Of a stretch of 22,353 nt of DNA, positions 1 to 20,420 are shown in pieces; the first letter of the stretch is position 1; every line of letters starts with the position of its first letter. The DNA is from a virus: IMG/VR virus record IMGVR_UViG_3300040960_001967, positions 1-22,353 of that record; one strand, given 5' to 3'. The notes below the pieces were generated by a model that saw nothing but the letters and a program-made list of their open reading frames with translations, made no database searches and was not told the DNA's origin. Both the position numbers and the translations under genes were made by a program.

Positions 1-195
1 TTTAATAAGTTCTTGATACTTGTCAATTTCTCTTTCCCATAACTCTCTATCGTACCATCTGCCATTACCATTTTTAACTTCAGCAGTAGCTAAAGGACCT
101 TCTACAATTGGGTTACCAGAAGGAGCTCTCATACCCTCATGCAACTGCATAGGGGACACCTGGAATGGAATAGTTTCGATGAGTACTTGTTTCAT
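1..195 (-). CDS. Prohead core protease, gp21-like (partial, 5' part only)
   Basis: This is the N-terminal 65 codons of a gene running off the left edge. The peptide begins MKQVLIETIPFQ and contains NGNGRWYDRELWEREIDKY. In T4-like gp21 proteases the first conserved segment is similar, of the form NxNGRxYpxxvlexEvxkY. In T4, gp21 is the serine-type protease of the prohead core; it cleaves scaffold, capsid and internal proteins after L/I-x-E. The ATG overlaps the TAA of the preceding gene by one base (TAATG), which fixes the start. The position downstream of the portal matches the T4 order 20-67-68-21. The catalytic residues lie outside the window, so the assignment rests on the N-terminal motif and synteny. 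Confidence 0.72.
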   Translation of the reverse strand, partial: MKQVLIETIPFQVSPMQLHEGMRAPSGNPIVEGPLATAEVKNGNGRWYDRELWEREIDKYQELIK

Positions 196-2931: not shown

Positions 2932-4818
2932 TTACTTCTTTAATCTACTTTCATCTAATAAAGAAGTTTTTTCTTTATCTTTATTAAATACTAATTCTTT
3001 ATCTAATATTTCTAATAATGTTTTATTTTTCGCTTTTATTTCTAAAGCTAACGGAGAAACATCTTTTTTAGGCCTACCATAACCTTCTTGATCATCATTT
3101 TTGGCCGCGTCTCTACCTAATCTATCTTTACCAAGTGGATCATTTTGTGTACCAATAAATGAAGCTTTTTCTTTAGGTCTACCTAAAGTAGCTTTTTCAT
3201 TATAACCATCCGGTACATTATCTGAATTGTCTTGGTATCTTCCTCTACCATATAATGAGGCTAAGTCATGTGGTGTACCATATGATTTGCCTGTTTCAGT
3301 TGGGTCATTTCCTTCATTTTCAATTTGAGCTAACCTAAACTTACGTTTTTGGTCTTGAGCAATTAAGTCTCTCATTTCCTCATATTGGTCTTGGCTGAAG
3401 TGGAAAATATTTTCATAAATCCAATCAGATGAAATTAAATTACTTTCTAACATAGAAGTAGCTAATGTCATTTTTTCATTCATTAAAGCAATTCTTTCTT
3501 GATCATAAATGATAGAAGGAGTTGTTAAGGATAATTCAAAATTAGTTAAATTATCAGCTGTATAACCTTGAGTATATAAATGAACTAAAGCAATTTTGTA
3601 TAATTCAGATAATATAATTCTTTGGATTTTATCAATTGTACGAGCGAAACGAATATCTTCAGCTGCTAATGTTGCTTTACCTTGTAAGTTTTCATCGTAA
3701 CCCATATATGCTTTAGGTACCTTTAAGGCAGCAAATAATTTATCTCTTAAGTAAGTAACGTCTGCTATACCATCATAATTTAAACCAGGTTGTGTTTCAA
3801 TTTTAGTTGATTGGTCATTACCTCTAACTGGAATATAAAAATCTTCCATAAGGTTTTGCATGTTGTATTTTAAGTTATATTCACCAGTTTGATTATCCAT
3901 TAATGGAGTACGTTTCATAGTGGTGATAGTTTTCTGCATGAAGTTTTCTACTTCATTTGGTGGAATAGAACCAACGTTAATATAGAAAACACGTCTATCT
4001 GGTGAACGAGAGATTCTATGAATTAACATAGCATCTTCCATTAAAGCATATTGTTTATATATTCTACGAGCAGGCTCAATATATGCTCTACCATAAGGCA
4101 AATAGTTAACATCTGTCATTAGACGGAAGTGAGCCATTTCATAGTTTTGGAAAACAATTTGATTTTGTTCTTTAATTTGGGCCTGTGTTTCAGGTACACC
4201 ATAATATCCTGAACTGCCTCCAATATTTCCATCTGGAGAGTATACAAATCTTACAGCGTTTGGGTGTTCTGGATCGTAATTTTCTTGTCTTTCAATGTTA
4301 TATGCTTGATAAGGAATAACATTAAATACTCCATATTTTTCAGCGATTTCTAATTTTAAGAAAAAGTCTCCATACTTACACATTTGACGAATCCAAGACC
4401 AAAGATTAAATTCAATGTTTAATACATCATAAAACAAATTATAAAGTATTTGTTGAATATCATCATCACTTGATCTAATTTGTAATACCTCTCCCATCTC
4501 ATTTTTCAATGTAGCCTCTTCAGCTATAATATCAAGAGCAGAAGCAATAATTGCGTCATTATCCATTACATCATAGTCTGAATAAATAAAGGTTCTAAGA
4601 TATTGGTAGTTAACACTTAGCTGTTGACCAAAAAGTGATGTTGAGTTAGGTGAGTAAATCCTGTTGTATCTATCTAACAAGGAATTAGTAGCTATATCAC
4701 CTGATCTTTGAATGCTATCTACGTCTAAAACTTTTAATTCATTTCCTCCAGTGTTACGAATGATAACATCTGTTGAAAATAGTCGTTGTAAACGTTTAAA
4801 TAAACTAGTATCTGCCAT
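2932..4818 (-). CDS. 20: Portal vertex protein, gp20-like
   Basis: This 628-residue protein forms the dodecameric ring through which DNA enters and leaves the head. T4-type portal features are present: LFGQQLSVNYQYLRTFIYSD near residue 65, DNDAIIASALDIIAEEAT near 87, and the clip and stem segment AYMGYDENLQGKATLAAEDI followed by FARTIDKIQRIILSELYKI around residues 370-410. T4 gp20 is 524 residues, so this version is about 100 longer. The excess is a charged C-terminal tail (about 520-628) with repeated GR-P-K elements (LGRPKEKA, YGRPKKDV) and Asp/Lys-rich linkers. It follows the terminase gene directly; T4 genes 18 and 19 are absent from between them. Family assignment is secure; the tail's role is unknown. 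Confidence 0.95.
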   Translation of the reverse strand: MADTSLFKRLQRLFSTDVIIRNTGGNELKVLDVDSIQRSGDIATNSLLDRYNRIYSPNSTSLFGQQLSVNYQYLRTFIYSDYDVMDNDAIIASALDIIAEEATLKNEMGEVLQIRSSDDDIQQILYNLFYDVLNIEFNLWSWIRQMCKYGDFFLKLEIAEKYGVFNVIPYQAYNIERQENYDPEHPNAVRFVYSPDGNIGGSSGYYGVPETQAQIKEQNQIVFQNYEMAHFRLMTDVNYLPYGRAYIEPARRIYKQYALMEDAMLIHRISRSPDRRVFYINVGSIPPNEVENFMQKTITTMKRTPLMDNQTGEYNLKYNMQNLMEDFYIPVRGNDQSTKIETQPGLNYDGIADVTYLRDKLFAALKVPKAYMGYDENLQGKATLAAEDIRFARTIDKIQRIILSELYKIALVHLYTQGYTADNLTNFELSLTTPSIIYDQERIALMNEKMTLATSMLESNLISSDWIYENIFHFSQDQYEEMRDLIAQDQKRKFRLAQIENEGNDPTETGKSYGTPHDLASLYGRGRYQDNSDNVPDGYNEKATLGRPKEKASFIGTQNDPLGKDRLGRDAAKNDDQEGYGRPKKDVSPLALEIKAKNKTLLEILDKELVFNKDKEKTSLLDESRLKK

Positions 4819-4827
4819 AAGAATATA

Positions 4828-4839
4828 TTATAAATATTA
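4828..4839 (-). promoter_or_regulatory. Upstream element TAATATTTATAA
   Basis: The coding strand reads TAATATTTATAA, whose first three bases are the terminase stop codon. It ends 9 bases before the portal ATG. It matches the elements at 7414-7425 and 11556-11567 closely, and is nearly its own reverse complement. Confidence 0.5.
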
Positions 4840-6411
4840 TAGAAGCCAATTAATGTTTTCTTCTCCATCCCTAGTTGGCATAGAGTAAGGATTAGCTACA
4901 TTATTGGATCCATACGCTCCTTTAAATGGAGTAGTTCCTTTTGAAAAATTACCTAATGCTGCTCTTGTCATGTCTTGAGAATGTTGTTGAAATTTAAGTG
5001 ACGTGTCTCGTAGGAACATACCGATCCCAAATGACATAACCAAGTCATCATTATATCCTGTTTGAGCTTCTGGGCGTCCATTTCTCCAAATAAACACTTT
5101 CATTTCCTCTAACAAACGTTTTGAACGGATTGTTACTGATCTATCACCAACATATTCTCTAAACTTATTTACAACTAATGGTCTTGTTCTTAAAGACATT
5201 GTAAACCCAGGAGTCATATCTGAATTGCCTTCAAATACTCTCAAATAAGATTCTGCTGTTAATTGGTCTGATTTAGGTGAGTGGTATAAGTTTCTATATC
5301 CTCTTTCAATAATCGCATCAAGTGTAGCCCAACCAATTGAAGCATTTTCTACCACTAACATAGCATTATTATATTCAGTAGCTAAGCCTGTAAGAAAATA
5401 ACCATATTCTTTAGGTGGTAATTGTCCTTTATATTCAGCTACTTGTGTATTAGTTGCTATATCAATTACATGACAAGCAGAAGAGTCTTTACCATCACCT
5501 CTGGCTACGTCAGCTACTATCATATAGTCTCTACTATAATCTGCTGGTTCCCATATCCAAAGATTTTGGTCTGTTCCTCTTCTTTCTAAAGGATCTTTAA
5601 CTGTTGTTTCTTTAACAAATTCAATCCATTCAGGATAAAAAACGGTTTCACCAGATGTACTAAAGTCACAGTCACACTCTTGAGCTGCTAATCTAGGATC
5701 ACCTAGTAATTCATCTTGTCGTTTTCTCCAATCCTCATTTCTTTCCGGATGTACATACCAAGGGAGCTTGATAGGTAAAAAGTCGTTTTCTGCTGCTTCC
5801 GCTGACACCCATGTCTTGTGAAACCAATTTCCAGTTCCATACGGTGTTGAAAGTACTATTGCTCCACCACCCGTGGCTAATGTTTGTTGTGCTGATGCCC
5901 ATATTTCTCCAATTTGATCAATAAATGCTGCCTCATCCACTATCAGTAATGAAACGGCTTCTGATCGACCGGCATCACTACTTGCGGAAGTGGCTTTAAT
6001 TTGTGAACCATTACTTAGTCGTAATGATAATTTATTATTTTCATCTGCTGGTATTTTTAACCATGAAGGTAAGTTATCATACATAAACTTAACCTTTGTA
6101 ACCATGTTACGAGCAGTTTCTTGCTTTGTAGCTATACAAAGTACATTTTTATCTTTATGAAATAACATTAACCAAAGTGAGTAACCTGCGGCTAATGTTG
6201 AAATACCTAACTGTCTAGATTTTAAAACAATTGAATATGGGTGGTCCCTAAATAAACGTAATGTTTTTTCTTGAAAAGGATATAAATTAAATAATACTCT
6301 ACCACGTTGTGGGTGTTGAATATTACAATATTTTCTCATAAAGTGTGCTGGGTCTTGAACACACCTTACATATTCTTCTCTGATTATTTGTTTTAAATCG
6401 GGTTGACTCAT
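4837..6411 (-). CDS. 17: Terminase large subunit, gp17-like (packaging ATPase/nuclease)
   Basis: This is the packaging motor and headful nuclease. The ATG at 6411 overlaps the preceding stop as ATGA; an in-frame ATG 48 bases upstream would run into the spanin-like gene, so I use 6411 (524 residues). The ATPase domain shows an adenine-type Q (YPFQ, about 45), a Walker A region KSRQLGIST (64-72), Walker B LLIVDEAAF (155-163, D159/E160) and the coupling motif STPYGTG (188-194). The RNase H-like nuclease domain shows MIVADVARGDGKD (D301), VVEN (E355) and YNDD (D455/D456). T4 has SRQLGKTT; here the usual Lys is Ile and a Lys precedes the loop (K64), as in variant P-loops. T4 gp17 is 610 residues, so this is a compact form. 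Confidence 0.96.
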   Translation of the reverse strand: MSQPDLKQIIREEYVRCVQDPAHFMRKYCNIQHPQRGRVLFNLYPFQEKTLRLFRDHPYSIVLKSRQLGISTLAAGYSLWLMLFHKDKNVLCIATKQETARNMVTKVKFMYDNLPSWLKIPADENNKLSLRLSNGSQIKATSASSDAGRSEAVSLLIVDEAAFIDQIGEIWASAQQTLATGGGAIVLSTPYGTGNWFHKTWVSAEAAENDFLPIKLPWYVHPERNEDWRKRQDELLGDPRLAAQECDCDFSTSGETVFYPEWIEFVKETTVKDPLERRGTDQNLWIWEPADYSRDYMIVADVARGDGKDSSACHVIDIATNTQVAEYKGQLPPKEYGYFLTGLATEYNNAMLVVENASIGWATLDAIIERGYRNLYHSPKSDQLTAESYLRVFEGNSDMTPGFTMSLRTRPLVVNKFREYVGDRSVTIRSKRLLEEMKVFIWRNGRPEAQTGYNDDLVMSFGIGMFLRDTSLKFQQHSQDMTRAALGNFSKGTTPFKGAYGSNNVANPYSMPTRDGEENINWLL

Positions 6412-6818
6412 ATTAAGAGTATAAGGAAGACAATAGTATTTAACCCAGTAATTAACCAAGCTGCCTTAGCGCTTCCTTTATAATGTTCTATTTCTTTATT
6501 TTTAATTTCAATAATACTATCTTTATAACCCATTACCTCTTCATAGTTTTGTTCATTAGCTTTAAAAATATCAACTTGAGATACTAAGTTAAAAATAGTT
6601 GACTCTTGATCTACAATAATACTATCTTGTAAACGAATAGAGTCTCTAGCCACTTCAATTTCATTCCTACAATTATTATAGGACACTTTCATTAACATAG
6701 CATTTTTTAAAGCTCTAACAGGAACTAAAACTGTTGAATCAGTCGTAGTCGAAAGCTGCTGTGAACTCGCTGATGATATTGTCATTAGACATATTAGAAA
6801 TACGAGTATGTTCTTCAT
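6408..6818 (-). CDS. Spanin-like or other lysis-associated membrane protein, 136 aa
   Basis: The protein has a short basic start and hydrophobic core (MKNILVFLICLMTISSASSQ), a signal peptide or anchor. A long polar helical or coiled-coil middle with repeated D-S-I units follows (ARDSIRLQDSIIVDQ, GYKDSIIEIKNKEIEHY). A C-terminal hydrophobic segment, AAWLITGLNTIVFLILLI (119-136), ends the protein. This topology resembles a one-protein spanin, which spans the periplasm. The only Cys near the N terminus (LIC) is not in a good lipobox. I start at the internal ATG at 6818 because it begins the signal peptide; the longer reading from 6860 adds a charged, out-of-place extension. It overlaps the upstream spanin-like gene by 80 bases in another frame, as Rz/Rz1 pairs do. 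Confidence 0.6.
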   Translation of the reverse strand: MKNILVFLICLMTISSASSQQLSTTTDSTVLVPVRALKNAMLMKVSYNNCRNEIEVARDSIRLQDSIIVDQESTIFNLVSQVDIFKANEQNYEEVMGYKDSIIEIKNKEIEHYKGSAKAAWLITGLNTIVFLILLI

Positions 6819-7086
6819 TGTATTTTTTTCTATAAGTTTCTGCTTTTTTAGAAACTTCATTTAACTTGCCTTTATTAATTGCTACCATTGAATCTAAAAC
6901 TAGTTTGGCTGATGTTAAAGAGTCAATTTTAATTTTATTTAATCCTATTTCAATCTGTAAGGAGTCAATTTTAGCTTGATATTCTTTTTCTTTATCTGAG
7001 ATTTTAGAATTGCTATACATAAAAAGGAGCCATAGCAAACCTATTGCTCCCCATACAATAACCCCTTGTAAAATATATTTTTTCAT
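6739..7086 (-). CDS. Inner-membrane spanin-like protein (Rz-type), 115 aa
   Basis: An N-terminal transmembrane segment, about residues 5-24 (ILQGVIVWGAIGLLWLLFMY), is followed by a charged coiled-coil domain (KEKEYQAKIDSLQIEIGLNK, KIDSLTSAKLVLDSMVAINK, KAETYRKKYNEEHTRI). This N-in, C-out layout and length suit an i-spanin, which together with an outer partner fuses the inner and outer membranes at lysis of Gram-negative hosts. The 3' end overlaps the next, signal-bearing gene by 80 bases in a different frame, the classic i-/o-spanin arrangement. No endolysin or clear holin is visible nearby, so the lysis role rests on topology and overlap alone. Confidence 0.6.
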   Translation of the reverse strand: MKKYILQGVIVWGAIGLLWLLFMYSNSKISDKEKEYQAKIDSLQIEIGLNKIKIDSLTSAKLVLDSMVAINKGKLNEVSKKAETYRKKYNEEHTRISNMSNDNIISEFTAAFDYD

Positions 7087-11567: not shown

Positions 11568-12551
11568 TCCGAATATTTTAGCAAAATTAAGTACTAAAGC
11601 ACTTTGTTTAGCTGAAAAACTACTTAAAAGATCTTCTGAGGTTCTGAGTTTATTTAAATCAATACTATAAAATATTACTTTTCCTGATTTATCTAAATCT
11701 ACAAAAAATCCTCCATCTCCTGGTTTTCTACCTAATTTAGCATCTAATAATTTAAAAACCATTTCCATAGCTGCATCTTTAGAAGTATCAGGATTATCTA
11801 ATTCTTTATTTATATAATCAAGATTATCTTTTAATGTTTTAAAAATAGGATACTTAGCAGCTAAACCACCTAAATCATCTATTTTTTCTAACTCTAACAC
11901 TTGATCAAAGGCTGGAATTAAATCTTCACCTTTAAAATTGGTAGGATTAATAGTTCTAGCTAAATCACCTCCACCTAAGGCTTTACTTAAAGCGTTAATA
12001 CCTAAAACAACACTTAAAAGAGCTAAATTATCTTTGTCAGCTCCAAATCTTCCTATAGGGATTACAGGTTTACCATATGCTTTAACCTCAACACCTACTC
12101 CATCAAAGTATAAATCAGGATCATCTCCTTCTCTACCTTCTTCAACATTTACTCCACTATTTGAAAAATTATAAAGCCAATATAAAGCAATTTCACCATT
12201 ACCTACACCTTTAGTTTCACCTTCTTCTTCACCTTTTTTAGGTGGAGCTATATTATATAATTTCTCCCAAACATCTTTATCATCTTCTTTTACCTGGATA
12301 GAAAAAGTAGATCCTCCTTTGCCTGGGAATTCATATTTGTTTTTTGATCTAGGTACTTCATCAACACCTAATGCTTTTTTAATAGTTGTATCATATACTT
12401 CAGAACCTTCTTTAATTAAAGAAACTTCTTCTTTAGTATACTCTTCTACTAATCTTTTTAATAATAAAACGTCCTCAGGACTATTCATATCAGGATAGCC
12501 TTTAGGGAACTTATACGAAACTTGATTTAAAAATTTATCTAATATATCCAT
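11565..12551 (-). CDS. PD-(D/E)XK nuclease-like protein, 328 aa
   Basis: A candidate nuclease site runs GVGNGEIALYWLY (E120), DDPDLYFDG (D146) and VGVEVKAYGK (E155-x-K157). This is the E...PD...ExK arrangement of restriction-endonuclease-like folds. The flanking residues are similar to a conserved T4-like phage protein I recall ('GKGEVALYWL...NPDL..DG.GVEVKSY'). The rest is mainly helical, and the C terminus (SAKQSALVLNFAKIFG) is hydrophobic. An IKE-G site at 46-49 suggests possible prohead processing. The ATG overlaps the upstream TAA (TAATG). DNA processing during packaging or attack on host DNA are both possible; activity is inferred from motifs only. Confidence 0.7.
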   Translation of the reverse strand: MDILDKFLNQVSYKFPKGYPDMNSPEDVLLLKRLVEEYTKEEVSLIKEGSEVYDTTIKKALGVDEVPRSKNKYEFPGKGGSTFSIQVKEDDKDVWEKLYNIAPPKKGEEEGETKGVGNGEIALYWLYNFSNSGVNVEEGREGDDPDLYFDGVGVEVKAYGKPVIPIGRFGADKDNLALLSVVLGINALSKALGGGDLARTINPTNFKGEDLIPAFDQVLELEKIDDLGGLAAKYPIFKTLKDNLDYINKELDNPDTSKDAAMEMVFKLLDAKLGRKPGDGGFFVDLDKSGKVIFYSIDLNKLRTSEDLLSSFSAKQSALVLNFAKIFG

Positions 12552-12874
12552 TACTTGAATTTAGCGTCTATTAAACCTTTAAGGTTTTGTTTATTTACTC
12601 CTTTAATATCTTGCATATAACCTAAAAGTACTGAAAAGAATTCAGGTACTTCATTTGCGTTATTAATATTTCCTATTAATTTTTTAAATTGAGCATTATT
12701 ACGAATGAAGTTAGCTGCTTGTTTAGCATCACCTGTTTTAATACCATCAAGGTTAGGTAATTCGGTTTCTTCTTCACTTAAAGGATCATACATTGAATTT
12801 TCATCTTCAATGTCTACATTCATTTCTTTAAGAATTGAAGTTCTAATCATTTCTTTTAACTTTGATTTTTTCAT
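12551..12874 (-). CDS. Acidic helical protein with capsid-targeting-like leader, 107 aa
   Basis: The leader MKKSKLKEMIRTSILKEM is one of the clearest in the window: a basic amphipathic helix ending L-K-E (15-17). An acidic linker follows (VDIEDENSMYDPLSEEETEL), then a compact helical domain (AKQAANFIRNNAQFKKLIGN, VPEFFSVLLGYMQDIKG). There are no Cys and no catalytic motif. It overlaps the next gene as TAATG and starts five bases after the previous stop, so it is part of the same unit. By analogy with T4 internal proteins it may be packaged in the head. Confidence 0.7.
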   Translation of the reverse strand: MKKSKLKEMIRTSILKEMNVDIEDENSMYDPLSEEETELPNLDGIKTGDAKQAANFIRNNAQFKKLIGNINNANEVPEFFSVLLGYMQDIKGVNKQNLKGLIDAKFK

Positions 12875-12879
12875 TTTAA

Positions 12880-13377
12880 TTATGCTTCAGGTTCTGGAGT
12901 TTCTTCTGGGACTTCAGTGGCTGGCTCCTCTGGTGCTGCTGACGGCTCTTCACCTGTCTCGGTGGCTCCTGCCTCACCTGTTGCCTCGGTTGCTTCTGTC
13001 TGTTGACCATAAGATAATATTCTTGCTATAGATTGAATAGCTTGTTCTTCTTCTCCTATATTAGCTAAGTAATATTTTTTACCTTCAACTGTAGCTACCC
13101 AACTTCTAGGGGTATACATTAAGAAGAAATATTCTCCATTACCTAAAATTATTCTAAATGTTGTTGGTTTTGGAGCAACCCACTGTATATCAACTATAAA
13201 CAATTCATATTGATCTGTTAACAAATCAATAATTATTTCTTTTAAACTTGGAAATTTTTCTAAAACTGGAAATTTAGGGGCGTCTAAGGAAACAGTATCG
13301 TCAGCAGCTAAATAATCCGGTTTACGGATTTGCCTAACAACTACTTTAATTTTTTCTCTTAGTTCGTCTCTAGTCAT
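12880..13377 (-). CDS. 165-aa protein with helical leader and Pro/Glu/Ala/Thr tail
   Basis: MTRDELREKIKVVVRQIRK (1-19) resembles the leaders of neighbouring genes but lacks the terminal Glu, so it may not be cleaved. Residues 35-120 look like a single alpha/beta domain (YELFIVDIQWVAPK, FRIILGNGEYFFLMYTP, KKYYLANIGEEEQAIQSIAR). The last 40 residues are low-complexity Glu/Thr/Ala/Pro (EATEATGEAGATETGEEPSA and onward) and are encoded by noticeably G+C-richer DNA (12895-13010) than the surroundings. The start overlaps the upstream stop as TAATG. No family recognised. Confidence 0.65.
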   Translation of the reverse strand: MTRDELREKIKVVVRQIRKPDYLAADDTVSLDAPKFPVLEKFPSLKEIIIDLLTDQYELFIVDIQWVAPKPTTFRIILGNGEYFFLMYTPRSWVATVEGKKYYLANIGEEEQAIQSIARILSYGQQTEATEATGEAGATETGEEPSAAPEEPATEVPEETPEPEA

Positions 13378-14648
13378 TATTTAGATTTTAATTGTTTAGC
13401 TATTCTTTCTGCGAGTGATGAACCACAAGATCCTTCATGTACTTTACCACATGATTCACATACTTCATCTTTACCTTCATCAATAGCTTTAATATCTTGA
13501 GCTACGTCTGCCATAGCATCAATTTGAGGTTCTTTTAACTCAAAATCAAGATAATGTTTAGCACCTACTAAACATTCTTTAGCTTTAATAATTTTTGCTT
13601 GCCACCAATGAGGAAAATCAACCTCACCTGGACCTTCAAACTGGTCTACCATCTGGTATAATTCCATAGCATATTTTCCAATACGATAAAGGTCAGCTTT
13701 AAGCATGTGTGGTTCATTATCTGTATGTCCAATATCTAAATCTTCTTGCATCATTTCTTCATCACCCTCTTCTTCGTCACCATATTCTTCAATTTCATCT
13801 ACAATTGAAGCTAATGTGGTATCGTATCTGTTTGAGCTAGAACCCAAATCAAAAGCACCATATGCTTCTCCTTTATTAAGGAAAGATGGGAAGTTTTGAG
13901 CAATAATATCTCTGGCTTGGTCTCCTAATGTTTGAAGTTCATCTAAGATGTTTTGTAACTCCATAAGAGCTTCCATTTTATCTCCGCTCATTTCTTTTAT
14001 CATTGCTGCTCGTCTTTCAATTTCATCTTTAGACATATACTCATTTCCTGAACCTTGTCCTGAAAGTTTAGCAATAGCGGCATCTATTTTATTAAGCATA
14101 CCACCATATCTGTTTGCGATTGGCCCACCTTCAGGTTCTGCTTCTTGTTCCATATCACGCATTAATTCAGCACGGCGTATTTTTAGAGCTTTAATTTTAG
14201 AAGCATTTTTAACTGCTGCGTAATTAGGATTAATAAATTTTTTAGGTTTTTCTTCTTCCTTTTCTCTAGCTGCTATTTTTTCTCTAGCTGCTCTGAATAA
14301 GCGAAGTGCTGAGTCATTAGCGCCTATATTTTCTTTTACTTTATCAATAATTCTTTTTTGTAATTCATCAGGTAGATTTTTTTGTTTACCTGTTAAATTA
14401 GGATTATCATCATACTTATCAGTAAAAGTAGCCTCTTTAGTTAAAGAGGATTTAATTAATTCTCTAAGTTTTTCTTTGTTCATTGCTTCTGCTTGTTTTT
14501 TTGCTATATTGGTAGCACGACCATACATAACTGCTTCAGCGTCCTTACCATAACGTTTTACTAAGGACTTTTTTTGTTTTTTAAGGTCTTTAATAACCTC
14601 TTCTCTTTTATTGAGTTCGGCTTTGGTAAGTTCGCGTTCGTTGAGCAT
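13377..14648 (-). CDS. Large acidic T4-like phage protein with internal leader and C-terminal Cys motif, 423 aa
   Basis: Three parts are visible. Residues 1-55 (RELTKAELNKREEVIKDLKK, LVKRYGKDAEAVMYGRAT) form a basic helical module I recall at either end of many T4-like phage proteins. Residues 56-73 (MNKEKLRELIKSSLTKEA) are a leader-like helix starting at an internal Met. Residues about 305-372 (HTDNEPHMLKADLYRIGKYA, GEVDFPHWWQAKIIKAKE) match a conserved segment of environmental T4-like phages. The C terminus ends in a CESC...H...C cluster (397-408) that could bind zinc. An acidic spacer (EEYGDEEEGDEEMMQEDL) precedes the conserved segment. It is likely structural or packaged; the function is unknown. 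Confidence 0.7.
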   Translation of the reverse strand: MLNERELTKAELNKREEVIKDLKKQKKSLVKRYGKDAEAVMYGRATNIAKKQAEAMNKEKLRELIKSSLTKEATFTDKYDDNPNLTGKQKNLPDELQKRIIDKVKENIGANDSALRLFRAAREKIAAREKEEEKPKKFINPNYAAVKNASKIKALKIRRAELMRDMEQEAEPEGGPIANRYGGMLNKIDAAIAKLSGQGSGNEYMSKDEIERRAAMIKEMSGDKMEALMELQNILDELQTLGDQARDIIAQNFPSFLNKGEAYGAFDLGSSSNRYDTTLASIVDEIEEYGDEEEGDEEMMQEDLDIGHTDNEPHMLKADLYRIGKYAMELYQMVDQFEGPGEVDFPHWWQAKIIKAKECLVGAKHYLDFELKEPQIDAMADVAQDIKAIDEGKDEVCESCGKVHEGSCGSSLAERIAKQLKSK

Positions 14649-14654
14649 TTTATT

Positions 14655-15044
14655 TTATTGAGTTATGTATTTTACATATATTAAATCTTTCCCTGCAACT
14701 TTAATAGGCATAGGATCGTTACCATCTTCACTTTCAAAAGGGGTTAAAAATCCGGATTCAATATCCTTTATATGCTCCATACCTATAGGGCCAATATGAT
14801 CAATATGTTCAGGTCTTCTAAATGAGTATGTAGCATAGCCTATTGTTATACTAGGGTCACCATCACCATCAAATTCAAATTTTAAATCTGCAGTGTCTGT
14901 TGGTTCTTCTTCGATTTGATTTAAAACTTCACCCATATTTTGTTGAAGGAAGTTCAATAAACCTTTATCATTTAAAGGTTCACCTTTTTGGGCTTCAAAT
15001 AGCCTACCTTCTGTAAGGTATTTTTTTAAGTCAAAGTTATCCAT
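14655..15044 (-). CDS. 129-aa protein with leader ending L-T-E
   Basis: The N terminus MDNFDLKKYLTEGRLFEA has two candidate processing sites, LTE before Gly (10-13) and LFE before Ala (15-18). The 'NF.LKKYL.EGKL' form is one I recall at the start of many T4-like phage proteins. The remaining domain is acidic and beta-rich (TADLKFEFDGDGDPSITIGY, ATYSFRRPEHI, VAGKDLIYVKYIT) with no Cys. It is preceded by repeated AAAATA units, and the ATG of the next gene lies six bases after its stop. No function is recognised; a packaged internal protein is inferred from the leader. Confidence 0.68.
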   Translation of the reverse strand: MDNFDLKKYLTEGRLFEAQKGEPLNDKGLLNFLQQNMGEVLNQIEEEPTDTADLKFEFDGDGDPSITIGYATYSFRRPEHIDHIGPIGMEHIKDIESGFLTPFESEDGNDPMPIKVAGKDLIYVKYITQ

Positions 15045-15055
15045 TTTATTTTATT

Positions 15056-15226
15056 TTATTTTTTATCTTCAGCAACTGAGGCTTGACGATATTCGGTAAT
15101 CATTTTCTTGATCTCACCTAATGCTTTACGAGCACGTCCGTGAGCAGCTTTAGATTTACCAGCATGTTCAGCTTTAAACGTTTCGTATAAAGCGTCAATT
15201 TTGTCAAATAATTCTTGTGTGTTCAT
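15056..15226 (-). CDS. Histone H1-like protein, Hc1 type, 56 aa
   Basis: This short gene fills the gap between its neighbours and reads MNTQELFDKIDALYETFKAE, HAGKSKAAHGRARKALGEIK, KMITEYRQASVAEDKK. The Lys/Arg/Ala-rich helical pair with 'K.AA..RARKAL.E..K...EYR..S' matches the small Hc1-type histone H1-like proteins of Bacteroidota, chlamydiae and some of their phages, which bind and compact DNA. The length is typical. It has no L/I-x-E leader. The start is preceded by AAATAAAATAT without a Shine-Dalgarno sequence. Lying among candidate internal head proteins, it could condense phage DNA in the head or act on host DNA on entry; either role is inference. Confidence 0.78.
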   Translation of the reverse strand: MNTQELFDKIDALYETFKAEHAGKSKAAHGRARKALGEIKKMITEYRQASVAEDKK

Positions 15227-15231
15227 ATATT

Positions 15232-16392
15232 TTATTTTAAAATTTTCTTTAACATTGGGAATACAGACTCATTTAAATCTTCTTTAACAACGTGTTGACG
15301 GGTAAAGAATGTTAATGAGTTACCAATTTGTTTTTGTAATTTTTCATCACCTAACTTTTTAGCTGCTTCCATAGCTGCTTCTAAGTTGTCTTGAACTTCT
15401 TTTTCAACACCAGTTAAGTCAGCATCAGCGTTTTGAGATACACTAATACCACCATCATCTGATGGGGTTGGTTCTTCAACGTCTACGTCTACTTCTTCAG
15501 TGTCTGTTACTTCTTCTTCGTCTTCAGCTTCTCTTAGAGAACTATAATCTTCTAAATCATACATTTGGATAATGTGCCCTAAATTAGCTATAGCTTCATC
15601 TGTATCCATAGCGGAAATCAATTCTTGGAGGAATTGGGAATCATCCATATTGTCTCTTATCAAATCAAACATTTTCCAAACTCTTGGATTGTTTGTTTCA
15701 TTTATTTTTTCAGATTCTCTCATAGCCATATCCCAAGCACCACTTTCCATTTCATCTGGTTCGTCTTTTGGATTCATCTCAGATAAAATCATTTCTTTAA
15801 TTTTGGCTTTGAATTCTGATACTTTCATTTTATTTGTTGTACCTTCTTCTAATTCTTCCTCATCATCATATTCCTCATCATCACCATATTGGTCTTCCCA
15901 AGAATAACCATAATCATCATCATCTTCCTCTTCTTCAGGAGTATACCAAGATTGGTCTGGGTCATTTTCTGCTTCTTGAGTAAAGTCATGGGTTTTATAA
16001 TTAAACGTATTTGGTTCAGCAACTAAAGCAGGAAATAATACTGGTCCACCATTTTTTGGTTCTAGTTCACCAAAAGCTAATTTAATACCAATACCTCTTA
16101 ACTCTTTAAAAGTACCACCCAATTCATAAGCATCATCTTTTGTGTAGCCATTCATTTCAGCTACTAAATCGTAGTAGTCTTTACCACCAAATTCACCATA
16201 TCCACTATACTCTTTTTCATAATAATATTTACCTTTATTATCAAACATGTATACAGGGATTGTATTTTCTTTTTCTGAACCAATTTGTTGTTCCGTGTCT
16301 TGTGTCATCCAAGAAAATTGACCTTCATTCAATGAAGTATGAAAGGTAGCTTTATTTTCTTTTACAGCTTTTCTATAGTCAAAGTTTGCCAT
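15232..16392 (-). CDS. 386-aa acidic protein, apparent fusion of two leader-bearing modules
   Basis: Module one starts MANFDYRKAVKENKATFHTS, has LNE before Gly at 21-24, and continues with an alpha/beta region (YMFDNKGKYYYEKEYSGYGE, RGIGIKLAFGELEPKNGGP). A very acidic linker follows (about 152-185). Module two begins at Met189 with MKVSEFKAKIKEMILSEM, a textbook leader ending L-S-E (203-205), then helical segments, another acidic stretch after LREA (about 286-315) and a final helical domain (VEKEVQDNLEAAMEAAKKLG, SLTFFTRQHVVKEDLNESVF). An internal leader looks like two separate genes joined in frame, or a polyprotein cut by the prohead protease. No catalytic motif is recognised. Confidence 0.7.
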   Translation of the reverse strand: MANFDYRKAVKENKATFHTSLNEGQFSWMTQDTEQQIGSEKENTIPVYMFDNKGKYYYEKEYSGYGEFGGKDYYDLVAEMNGYTKDDAYELGGTFKELRGIGIKLAFGELEPKNGGPVLFPALVAEPNTFNYKTHDFTQEAENDPDQSWYTPEEEEDDDDYGYSWEDQYGDDEEYDDEEELEEGTTNKMKVSEFKAKIKEMILSEMNPKDEPDEMESGAWDMAMRESEKINETNNPRVWKMFDLIRDNMDDSQFLQELISAMDTDEAIANLGHIIQMYDLEDYSSLREAEDEEEVTDTEEVDVDVEEPTPSDDGGISVSQNADADLTGVEKEVQDNLEAAMEAAKKLGDEKLQKQIGNSLTFFTRQHVVKEDLNESVFPMLKKILK

Positions 16393-16407: not shown

Positions 16408-16421
16408 TTATAAATATGTTA
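16408..16421 (-). promoter_or_regulatory. Upstream element TAACATATTTATAA
   Basis: The coding strand reads TAACATATTTATAAC, starting with the stop codon of the 600-residue gene, followed by a second A/T run (ATATATTTAACACA) before the ATG at 16392. It contains the shared core ATATTTATAA; the plus strand holds TATAAATA. Confidence 0.45.
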
Positions 16422-18221
16422 TTTTTTTAATCTATTAAATACTCGTTGTTTTATTTCTTCTAAACCTCTTTCACGACGTAACTGTTCTTCATCGTGTTCT
16501 ATTTGATTACGAGTTACCTCATCTATAAATACACGTTTAAAGTCAGCAAAGCTGTAAATTGGTTCATTGTATAATTCAATTGTTTCGTCTTCAACATTAA
16601 TACGGATATCGGCTGTTTGGTAACCTAAATCGAGGATTAAGGTATTGTAATTTTTACCAATTGCTGTTCCGCCAGTAATTCTAGCACCTACTTTTTCAGC
16701 CCAACCTGCTACTGTGTTCACTAAACGAGAAACACCTCTTCTTTTAGCAAAGTCTTTAATGTTTGAAGGAACAAAAGCTTCTTCTAGTTCACCTTTTCTT
16801 TTACCAAAGGTATCGTGAACTAGTTTATCTAATTTTGTATGGAATTCTGTTTCTTCCTCTTTTGTAGCTTCATCCATTGATGTCTTTACAACACCTCCAA
16901 GATTATATCTGAATATAATATCGTCAAAGTTTTTATACCATTTATCATCTTTGTTTACTGGTTTGTAAACTGCTTTAAATGGTTTATATGGGTTACCTGA
17001 CATTTCATATTTAACACCTAATTGTTGTAATTGAATTTGGATAGCTTTAATATGTTTGTTAACATTAGCTACTGGTTTATTTTCTTCTAAACCAAACATT
17101 GCTTTTTCTCTAGCAATTTCTGTATCTACAGGATTAAGTATAGCTGCTTGTTTTTTAGTTTTAGCTTTATAGGCATGTTTTTTATTTAATGCACGTAATT
17201 TAGCAGCATCAAAGAATTCATCGTTATCATCATCGCCAGAATTATCAGTACGAGATAAATTTTTAAGTGCTTGAGAGCGTTTATGTAATTCTTTAGCTGC
17301 TTCTTTATCTTTAGTGTTTTTAACGTAGGTGGCTAATTCTTGGTTTGTATAGTCTGTAAATGATTTTTTCATGTTTTCGTCTAAGCCAGCAAAATAGGCT
17401 TTTAATTTTTGTTGTAAGGCATCAGCTTCTTTAACGTCTAATCCCTTCATTATATCTTTAAATTTGTCTAATATAGCTCTATATTCAGTATCAATATCTT
17501 CATCTTCATTTAAGCTAGCAATTGAGTCCATAGGAGGCATTCCAGCATCATATCTCATTTTATCAATGTCCATTTTAGCTTTAGCTCTTTTTAAGACATC
17601 TAAATCAACCTCTTTGTCCATAATTGGTTCCATAAGAGTAATGTTATAATCATCTAAATAAAGATCAGCCTCTCCACTATCCATAAAGTCAGATAATTTA
17701 TCTCCAGGGAAATAATCTTCTAAATCATTTAAAAGATTAGCCCAATCAGATTCCATATCTTCGAAATCCATTTCAATAGTTTTTCCAGCGTATTTTCTAA
17801 ATACAGCATCTACTGGATCTCCAAATTCCATTTCGTTTACTGATTCTTCCATTTCAGGTTGTCTTCCAGGTAGTCCAAATAAAACATAATCTAATTTTTT
17901 ACTATCAAATTCGTCTTTTAGTTCTTGATATTCTGAACTAGCCATTGGTATACCTTTTACTTTTTGTACATGGTCGTACCAATCTTCAATTCTAAATACT
18001 CTAAAATGGTGACGTCCCATATCAAAATAGATATCTTCTCCTTTTAAATTCTTAGCAGTGTATTTACCTCCTGGTAAAGACCAGTCTAGTTTTAAAGTAT
18101 CAGGTTGTATTTTATCTCCATAAAATTTCTGGATAGCTTCCTCAGCACCCATCATAGCTTCATTTATTTCTTCTTTTAATGGTTTAGAAAAGAATTCTTG
18201 TATTTTTTTAAGATCTTCCAT
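16419..18221 (-). CDS. Large T4-like phage protein with leader and several L/I-x-E sites, 600 aa
   Basis: I start at the ATG at 18221 because it gives the leader MEDLKKIQEFFSKPLKEEIN-EA, with LKE (15-17) and INE before Ala (19-22). An in-frame ATG at 18278 adds a Lys/Leu/Pro stretch that is only the shadow of the overlapping 56-residue gene. Segments include GGKYTAKNLKGEDIYFDMGR (51-70), a long central helical region, a basic stretch (KHAYKAKTKKQAAI) and a C-terminal domain FVPSNIKDFAKRRGVSRLVN plus AEKVGARITGGTAIGKNYNT (about 483-527). I recall the last in many T4-like phage proteins. Further sites LNE (237-239), LEE-N (378-380) and LEE-A (479-481) sit at apparent domain edges. No enzyme motif is evident. 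Confidence 0.7.
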   Translation of the reverse strand: MEDLKKIQEFFSKPLKEEINEAMMGAEEAIQKFYGDKIQPDTLKLDWSLPGGKYTAKNLKGEDIYFDMGRHHFRVFRIEDWYDHVQKVKGIPMASSEYQELKDEFDSKKLDYVLFGLPGRQPEMEESVNEMEFGDPVDAVFRKYAGKTIEMDFEDMESDWANLLNDLEDYFPGDKLSDFMDSGEADLYLDDYNITLMEPIMDKEVDLDVLKRAKAKMDIDKMRYDAGMPPMDSIASLNEDEDIDTEYRAILDKFKDIMKGLDVKEADALQQKLKAYFAGLDENMKKSFTDYTNQELATYVKNTKDKEAAKELHKRSQALKNLSRTDNSGDDDNDEFFDAAKLRALNKKHAYKAKTKKQAAILNPVDTEIAREKAMFGLEENKPVANVNKHIKAIQIQLQQLGVKYEMSGNPYKPFKAVYKPVNKDDKWYKNFDDIIFRYNLGGVVKTSMDEATKEEETEFHTKLDKLVHDTFGKRKGELEEAFVPSNIKDFAKRRGVSRLVNTVAGWAEKVGARITGGTAIGKNYNTLILDLGYQTADIRINVEDETIELYNEPIYSFADFKRVFIDEVTRNQIEHDEEQLRRERGLEEIKQRVFNRLKK

Positions 18222-18378
18222 TTGTTTTTTTCTTAGGGGCAGGTTTAGGGGTAATTTTTTCTTCTTTAGGTTGTTCAATAGGAGTTTCTTCAGCTTTAAC
18301 TTCTGGTTGAGGTTCAGGAGTAACTTGATTTATAGTTACGTCTCTGGTCATTTGGGCCATTGTTATGAACTTTCTCAT
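18208..18378 (-). CDS. Small Pro/Glu/Lys-rich peptide, 56 aa
   Basis: The frame reads MRKFITMAQMTRDVTINQVT, then PEPQPEVKAEETPIEQPKEE and KITPKPAPKKKTNGRS. It is low-complexity and probably disordered, acidic and then strongly basic at the end. The ATG comes one base after the upstream stop (TAATATG, the same junction form as at 7951-7957), and the stop overlaps the next gene by 14 bases. A second in-frame ATG at 18360 is possible. It fills an otherwise empty gap in a tightly packed operon, which favours a real gene. The function is unknown; a linker, decoration or DNA-contacting peptide is possible. Confidence 0.55.
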   Translation of the reverse strand: MRKFITMAQMTRDVTINQVTPEPQPEVKAEETPIEQPKEEKITPKPAPKKKTNGRS

Positions 18379-19560: not shown

Positions 19561-19878
19561 TTATTTTAATACATCCTTAAGGATGCTTGTTAATTTTAAT
19601 TCTTTAACTGCTTTTAAAGTTGGTTTATCTTTTAAGACTACTTTTACTTTGTTACGAGTAGCAGCATCTTTAATTTTAGAGGCAATGGCTGCTGCTGAGC
19701 TATCTTTGGTTTTAACATCAATAACTATTTTACCTTCAACACCATCTTTAATGTCTAATTTAGCATCAGGGTAATCATTTTTCCAGTCTTTAGCAAGTTT
19801 TTCTTTAACTTCTTTAGCTGTTTCTTTAGCCTTATCTCCTGATAATACTAATCTTTTGTATGTAATTGGTTCTGCCAT
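19561..19878 (-). CDS. Small Lys-rich alpha/beta protein, 105 aa
   Basis: About a fifth of residues are Lys. Alternating helices and strands are visible: KAKETAKEVKEKLAKDWKND, AKLDIKDGVEGKIVIDVKTK, AAAIASKIKDAATRNKVKVV and ELKLTSILKDVLK. The pattern suggests a single small alpha/beta domain. There is no L/I-x-E leader, Cys or membrane segment. Both ends are coupled to neighbours (TAATG at 19878, TAAATG at 19560). Unrecognised family; the basic charge would fit nucleic-acid binding, but this is inference. Confidence 0.65.
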   Translation of the reverse strand: MAEPITYKRLVLSGDKAKETAKEVKEKLAKDWKNDYPDAKLDIKDGVEGKIVIDVKTKDSSAAAIASKIKDAATRNKVKVVLKDKPTLKAVKELKLTSILKDVLK

Positions 19879-20420
19879 TATAATCCTATATTTTGTAATT
19901 GTTCAATTGTGTTAGCGGCACTTGTATGTAAAATACCTATACCACCTTTTGATCTCCATTGTTCGATGTTATCAGGACGATCATCGATAAGTATTTTATC
20001 TCTTCCAGAATAATTTTGTTTTTTGGAAGCAGACGCTAAAATTAATTTAGTGCCTGGAATATTATTTTTAACCCATAAACGTTTTCCTAAACGTGATTCA
20101 TTTTGTCTGGAAGGAGCGGATAGTAATGTTGGGTTGAATGGGGCAATAAAATCCCATAATTCTTTACCATCCTTCATCCAAGGAATACCTACCCAAAACT
20201 TAACACCGTTTTCTTCATCAATAAAGTTCCAAAACTTTTCTGTACCATACTTAGTACTATATTGACTTGGAGAAAGATGTTCAGGGTTTAAAGAAGTAAA
20301 GCGCTTATCAAAGTCACAAAGTACGCCATCCATGTCACAATAGATTTTGTATCTTGGTTCTTCAGCTTGTTCTTCTTCTCTAAGCTGTTTATATACATCT
20401 GTTAATTTTAATTTATACAT
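19878..20420 (-). CDS. HAD-superfamily 5'-nucleotidase-like phosphatase with leader, 180 aa
   Basis: Motif I is YCDMDGVLCDFD (27-38; nucleophile D29, acid D31). Motif II lies at LLSAPSR (S101), a basic residue suits motif III (about K113), and motif IV is KILIDDRPDN (142-151, DD). The layout is like 5'(3')-deoxyribonucleotidases and phage HAD phosphatases. Before the domain there is a leader, MYKLKLTDVYKQLREEEQAE, with LRE at 13-15, which a housekeeping phosphatase would not need. The start overlaps the upstream gene by 8 bases. The activity is likely dephosphorylation of nucleotides or nucleic-acid ends; the substrate is unknown. The leader raises the possibility of packaging in the head. 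Confidence 0.85.
   Translation of the reverse strand: MYKLKLTDVYKQLREEEQAEEPRYKIYCDMDGVLCDFDKRFTSLNPEHLSPSQYSTKYGTEKFWNFIDEENGVKFWVGIPWMKDGKELWDFIAPFNPTLLSAPSRQNESRLGKRLWVKNNIPGTKLILASASKKQNYSGRDKILIDDRPDNIEQWRSKGGIGILHTSAANTIEQLQNIGL

Follow-up and report, generated by a model that had tools for sequence, protein, structure and literature searches.

Internal leader peptides in two proteins of a T4-like phage: a probable head polyprotein and a probable uncut helix

Why would two proteins of one phage each carry, well inside their sequence, a peptide that resembles an N-terminal leader and begins with methionine? The question arises in a stretch of 22,353 bases (the window) from IMG/VR virus record IMGVR_UViG_3300040960_001967. 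Its main genes lie on the minus strand and, by its gp17, its gp20 and the start of the S77 prohead protease gp21, it is part of a T4-like phage. A first-pass annotation placed the peptides at residues 189-206 of a 386-residue protein (MKVSEFKAKIKEMILSEM) and 56-73 of a 423-residue protein (MNKEKLRELIKSSLTKEA). It proposed that genes had been joined, that internal starts are used or that a protease cuts at the leaders. Both peptides are where it put them, opening with Met189 (codon 15826-15828) and Met56 (codon 14481-14483). The acidic linker that it saw ahead of the first holds 21 Asp or Glu among 36 residues (152-187), and the third residue before the proposed cut (P3) of the second is indeed Thr70 instead of Leu or Ile. 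Both internal leaders are real and non-random, yet they are two different things. From the sequence comparisons below, we consider it probable that the 386-residue protein consists of fused head-cargo modules, each behind its own capsid-targeting leader, and serves as a polyprotein for the prohead protease. The helix of the 423-residue protein probably continues its N-terminal module as an uncut core-binding or structural helix. Module names and coordinates are given in Table 1; a slash in a motif marks a module boundary or cut site.

A small number of leader types open many genes of the cluster. Class I (M.NFDLKKYLxEG.L.E) is found on many genes, class II reads M[KT]xSELKxxIKxxILxE, and a further type reads MxDLKKIQEFFSKPLxE, joined in other contigs by FKRMQKLAGIITE. 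A class II profile trained solely on the N-termini of other gene families (64 leaders in 21 clusters, with the Met column omitted) returned both internal sites as the top internal matches within their proteins. The site in the 386-residue protein scored 13.0, which 0 of 2000 shuffles reached, and that in the 423-residue protein 17.5, reached by 1 of 2000 (p <= 0.0005 for both). Charged proteins often contain short amphipathic helices, and these two could be ordinary long proteins with a chance helix that happens to begin with Met. We regard this as very improbable, as it is contradicted by the shuffle tests, by conservation over about 118 distinct relatives and by relatives in which a separate gene starts at the same residue. 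Conservation differs between the two families: a leader end of the form [LIVMF]xE is near-constant in the 386 family, but many leaders in the 423 family lack it. Another apparent internal leader, at L078:8977, was set aside as an artefact of the open reading frame (ORF): the gene truly begins at Met21, a start that overlaps the end of the gene upstream.

The proposal of gene joining is supported for the 386-residue protein, both halves of which are separate genes elsewhere, with ends at the joint. The first half stands alone in four loci (L172, L263, L277 and L287). For the second half, A2, we took as a fair sample 50 distinct relatives fetched via the neighbouring gene. In nine of these A2 is its own gene starting at the leader Met (MKKSELKEMI), in ten it is internal with that Met, and in about 29 it is internal without it. 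The larger set of about 118 distinct relatives holds 12 distinct separate A2 genes that start exactly at the Met (L004, L016, L033, L036, L055, L058, L061, L067, L070, L072, L224 and L226), the very homologues that the first-pass annotation had proposed to look for. Separate A2 genes often have the late-promoter-like sequence TATTTATA upstream, and internal forms do not. In a concatenated tree the fused L003 is sister to the separate L004, within a separate-gene clade. L003 is the only placement that points to later fusion or module replacement; the root of the tree is compatible with either order, fusion first or split first.

Internal A2 proteins that lack the Met start with a class I leader. 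Two of their internal leaders, in L068 (YKIKVSELKAKIKE) and L069 (KKTTKSELKAEIKE), are one residue off the Met forms, with Ile or Thr at the Met place. Because many relatives keep the leader without Met, two of them differing by a single residue, the leader persists as a peptide and not as a start site. This weighs on the proposal of internal initiation, by which ribosomes would also start at Met189 and Met56 and make short products, as for T4 gp21 and gp17. Such starts are possible in principle, since T4 genes 21 and 17 have annotated ones, and the short gp21 of T4 has been called essential (PMC9026906). Furthermore, AATAAA directly precedes 27% of internal-leader ATGs, that of Met189 included, versus 4.0% of gene starts and 0.2% of other internal ATGs. 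We nevertheless find internal initiation improbable. The start codon is not conserved, no internal-leader ATG is preceded by TATTTATA and, AATAAA before Met189 aside, the contexts are not start-like. A start-context profile (held-out area under the curve 0.936), which is biased against any start within a coding region, gave Met189 a score of -4.75, the 49th percentile of ordinary internal ATGs and the 3rd of true starts. Met56 scored -9.63, with percentiles of 12.5 and 0 in the same two groups. In our own reading, the AATAAA before Met189 is a trace of a former upstream region. Alternatively, its translation NK could belong to a favoured cleavage context, E/NK, and we did not use NK before an internal Met as proof.

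If the leader is kept as a peptide, is the joint cut? The strongest evidence comes from the A1 module (GQFSWMTQDT...GYGEFGGKDYY). This module is found alone, following class I or other leaders, and in central or end positions of long proteins. A first scan with the pattern [TN]EGQFSW gave 31/31, biased at the last two residues before the boundary (P2 and P1), and was not used. Repeated with patterns that exclude boundary residues, the scan found [LIVMF]xE directly before A1 in 30 of 32 distinct contexts; the remaining two start M/GFFSW. A1 starts M/GxFSW in L375, in L378 and in bacterial genomes. In the latter, which are mostly Bacteroidota, Met directly precedes GxFSW in 10 of 11 copies, and nine of those ten Mets open a small ORF that stands alone. 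A1 alone thus starts with Met, and A1 behind another segment carries the protease motif in Met's place. The stand-alone proteins (M/GxFSW...GYGVFGGKDYYELLAEMNG) are about 117-147 residues long and occur in Bacteroidota genomes, a few other metagenome-assembled genomes and other phages (L375:2980-3405, L378 and L379-L389); no known family was found for them. A profile search of the PDB with A1 gave weak, chance-level matches only, and tblastn of A1 or the 386-residue protein against named phages gave no match.

The same motif marks other joints. Internal leaders of the 386 family end in [LIVMF]xE in 78 of 79 contexts, compared with 23% of random 10-residue windows. Glu stands at P1 in 43 of 46 contexts of the DLDLGH module ([h]xE in 34 of the 46), in 13/13 of GLKYH and in 5/5 of AYVPSN, as opposed to 0/15 for the interior landmark LMRDMEQ. 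Enrichment at BLAST breakpoints is 1.85-2.07 times for [h]xE, against 0.95-0.99 for [h]xD and 1.07-1.16 for [h]E, and there is none for [h]xK. Genes that are separate in the window are also fused elsewhere, namely those of 107 and 165 residues. The former aligns over its full length (71%) to residues 227-317 of a 317-residue protein in L006, where the joint reads ENK/MRKSELKNLIRERILKE.

A candidate protease for such sites is encoded by the phage group, beside gp20 and gp23. The partial gp21 of the window is 95% identical, over its 65 residues, to an L085 protein with the same start position that is a Peptidase_S77 (PF03420, 2.2e-28) and is followed downstream by a core protein and Gp23. It also matches gp070 of Flavobacterium phage immuto, again a Peptidase_S77 (E 8.9e-35). 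The presumed substrates look T4-like as well. They have [LI]xE sites and the [LIVMF]xE boundary of A1, and the group's capsid proteins carry QLVxE at about residue 60 (28/29), which would end the propeptide much as SFLTE65/A does in T4 gp23.

We infer that the two leaders of the 386-residue protein (1-23 and 189-205) bind the prohead core and that, after assembly, gp21 would cut after [LIV]xE at E23, at E205 and, probably, at E375, which would free A1 (24-205) and A2 (206-375). The cut SLNE/GQFSW would give A1 the N-terminus of its stand-alone relatives, M/GxFSW, provided that those relatives lose the Met ahead of Gly, as we presume. The fusion would have arisen by gene joining at the leader, and the leader peptide would have been retained even after later loss of the Met.

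Several points weigh against this proposal. Cleavage, head packaging and core binding are read from sequence rather than from the proteins themselves, and capsid localisation from leader type, gene neighbourhood and analogy. The motif is short: the 386-residue protein holds 17 [LIVMF]xE triplets, some within the predicted A1 fold. [h]xxE is also raised at breakpoints, 1.26-1.47 times, and BLAST alignments may stop at conserved residues, which could explain a share of the enrichment there. One of the scans had the leader Met in its pattern, which inflated its count of internal Met forms. Many leaders of the 423 family lack a cut motif. Finally, the AlphaFold model of the 386-residue protein is of low confidence (predicted template modelling score, pTM, 0.30). 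In favour of the proposal, that model places the leader (191-205) inside a low-confidence stretch (127-218) between two better-predicted parts.

That leader II is amphipathic and apart from the folded parts would also suit an uncut fusion, with the internal leader as an extra core-binding helix that raises scaffold avidity. Overall we judge this unlikely, though less so than internal initiation. The 386 family keeps the motif almost without exception, and [LIV]xE is found at module joints in different families.

For the 423-residue protein, however, an uncut fusion is favoured. In most relatives that bear B1, the helix at 56-72 sits behind it at a fixed place, and it ends a single helix that AlphaFold predicts for residues 26-73 with falling confidence. 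Gene joining at Met56 finds no parallel: among about 60 distinct relatives, not one begins at this Met. Many leaders of this family run into NPKKADLNKDGKLSDYE without any Glu motif, many end in QNPKKAD or similar, and the leader end in the window is TKE rather than [LI]xE. Thr at P3, together with a motif that is often missing, argues against a cut here, and the doubt raised over this residue was well placed. Processing at E302 (MMQE302/DLDIGH) is, by sequence, more likely than at the helix end. The proposal of a protease polyprotein is supported, at the level of joint motifs and a group-encoded S77 protease, for the 386-residue protein and not for the internal leader of the 423-residue protein. 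As a separate observation, EF-hand- or dockerin-like loops (DLNKDGKLSDYE and DLTGDGKVTKADI) recur as modules behind the leader helix in the relatives L004, L005, L007 and L010.

The closest known parallel is the capsid-targeting sequence (CTS) of T4 IPII and IPIII, which gp21 removes: a short leader ending in [LI]xE, many unrelated cargoes and an S77 protease. Leader I of the 386-residue protein has this form, ending SLNE/GQFSW. The T4 leaders read MKTYQEFIAE/A, which resembles MKTTFKEFVGE/ALITE/GQFSW of L270. T4 leaders are solely N-terminal and 10-19 residues long (PMC9026906), whereas here a second leader lies within a fused protein, several leader types coexist and the joints are marked by the cut motif. 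Like the T4 core proteins gp22, gp67 and gp68, which gp21 cuts to small peptides, these proteins have several [LIVM]xE sites each and acidic regions, and some A2 proteins end in the R.QKLAGIK tail of the group's core protein. In contrast to gp22, gp67 and gp68, with which no sequence match was found (the 386-residue protein has no Pfam or PHROG match), the sites here bound swappable modules. The tail, R[WMF]QKLAGI(I)K, is found in almost every gp22-like core protein of the group and in some A2 proteins (L085:6727-8100, immuto P0005, L007, L016 and L003; the matching place in the window is 15235-15267). Other genes carry it at the N-terminus (FKRMQKLAGIITE), and it may be a shared peptide for binding to the shell or the core.

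Head proteins of the giant phages phiKZ and SPN3US undergo multiple cuts after Glu during maturation (PMC10052503, PMC5694885), as predicted here from sequence. Their long propeptides differ in having an S80-type protease and another motif, and no fusion of separately encoded cargo genes is known among them. DarB of phage P1 is sent into the head by an N-terminal signal (PMC9024508), a role like that suggested for these leaders. Unlike the present proteins, P1 Dar proteins have no shared consensus and are not multi-module polyproteins with internal leaders. Our search of the literature found no papers on prohead-protease polyproteins in such phages.

More tentatively, and with somewhat less than even confidence, we suggest that these phages operate an open system of cargo loading. 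Proteins that stand alone in bacteria or phages would be taken up as modules, set between leaders and [LIV]xE sites. One translation product would enter the prohead by several core-binding leaders, and the protease would then release the cargoes, each with its native N-terminus, to be delivered into the next host. T4 leaders are familiar as N-terminal tags of individual proteins; in these phages the leader appears as a movable joint in polyproteins, and the many natural fusions and separations mark where the head protease should cut. This offers a route, based on sequence, to cargo delivered by the head in an aquatic phage group that is large and almost unannotated. It also suggests a design, found in nature, by which several proteins could be loaded into a single capsid.

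Table 1. Features of the window, with module boundaries of the two leader-bearing proteins
Feature	Coordinates	Strand	Remarks
386-residue putative fused head polyprotein (leader I, A1 cargo, acidic linker, leader II, A2)	15232..16392	-	
N-terminal leader I, residues 1-23, MANFDYRKAVKENKATFHTSLNE, ending SLNE/GQFSW	16324..16392	-	class I, on many genes
A1 module, residues 24-151 (GQFSW...)	15940..16323	-	stand-alone M/GxFSW in bacteria and other phages
Acidic linker, residues 152-188, ending ..GTTNK directly before Met189	15829..15939	-	
Internal leader II, residues 189-205, MKVSEFKAKIKEMILSE	15778..15828	-	predicted cut after E205
A2 module, residues 206-386	15235..15777	-	separate gene in relatives
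C-terminal tail SVFPMLKKILK after DLNE375	15235..15267	-	replaces scaffold-like R.QKLAGIIK tail of relatives
423-residue protein with internal leader-like helix	13377..14648	-	
B1 module, residues 1-55 (RELTKAE...RYGKDAEAVMYGRATNIAKK)	14484..14648	-	
Leader-like helix, residues 56-72, MNKEKLRELIKSSLTKE	14433..14483	-	no canonical cut motif, P3 = Thr
B2 module, about residues 105-200 (LMRDMEQEAEPEGG)	14049..14336	-	mobile among genes
B3 module, residues 303-385 (DLDIGHTDNEP...), after MMQE302	13494..13742	-	Glu at P1 in 43/46 contexts
165-residue gene	12880..13377	-	homologue fused in immuto gp079 behind internal leader
107-residue gene, starting with the same leader type	12551..12874	-	fused behind another module in L006
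T4-like terminase gp17	4837-6459	-	
Portal gp20	2932-4818	-	PF07230 3.6e-69
N-terminal 65 residues of prohead protease gp21 (S77)	1..195	-	L085 counterpart

Besides the terminase and the portal, this part of the window holds four small genes and then the first 65 residues of gp21. Searches of Pfam, PHROG, NCBIfam and PADLOC gave nothing above cut-off for the 386- or 423-residue protein, and a fold search with the AlphaFold model of the former returned nothing at E <= 0.001. The host is probably a member of the Bacteroidota, because the only named relative found for the 423-residue protein is Flavobacterium phage immuto. Across the locus set, 13.6% of gene starts have TATTTATA in the 40 bases upstream, as against essentially none of 5519 internal ATGs; in the window it precedes genes 195, 2041, 2932, 10417 and 15232. 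It is likely a late promoter of the phage group.

Two overlapping small genes, at 6408-6860 and 6739-7086, encode one protein with an N-terminal membrane segment and another with a signal-peptide-like start, and are a possible spanin pair. The TTG start of a 619-residue ORF at 16419-18278 is doubtful; the ATG at 18221 (MEDLKKIQEFFSKPLKEE, 600 residues) yields the leader of its relatives. A 5'-nucleotidase-like enzyme, NT5C (19878-20420; PF06941, 5.9e-6), starts with a leader-like segment, MYKLKLTDVYKQLRE/EE, and judging from that segment it is possibly carried in the head.

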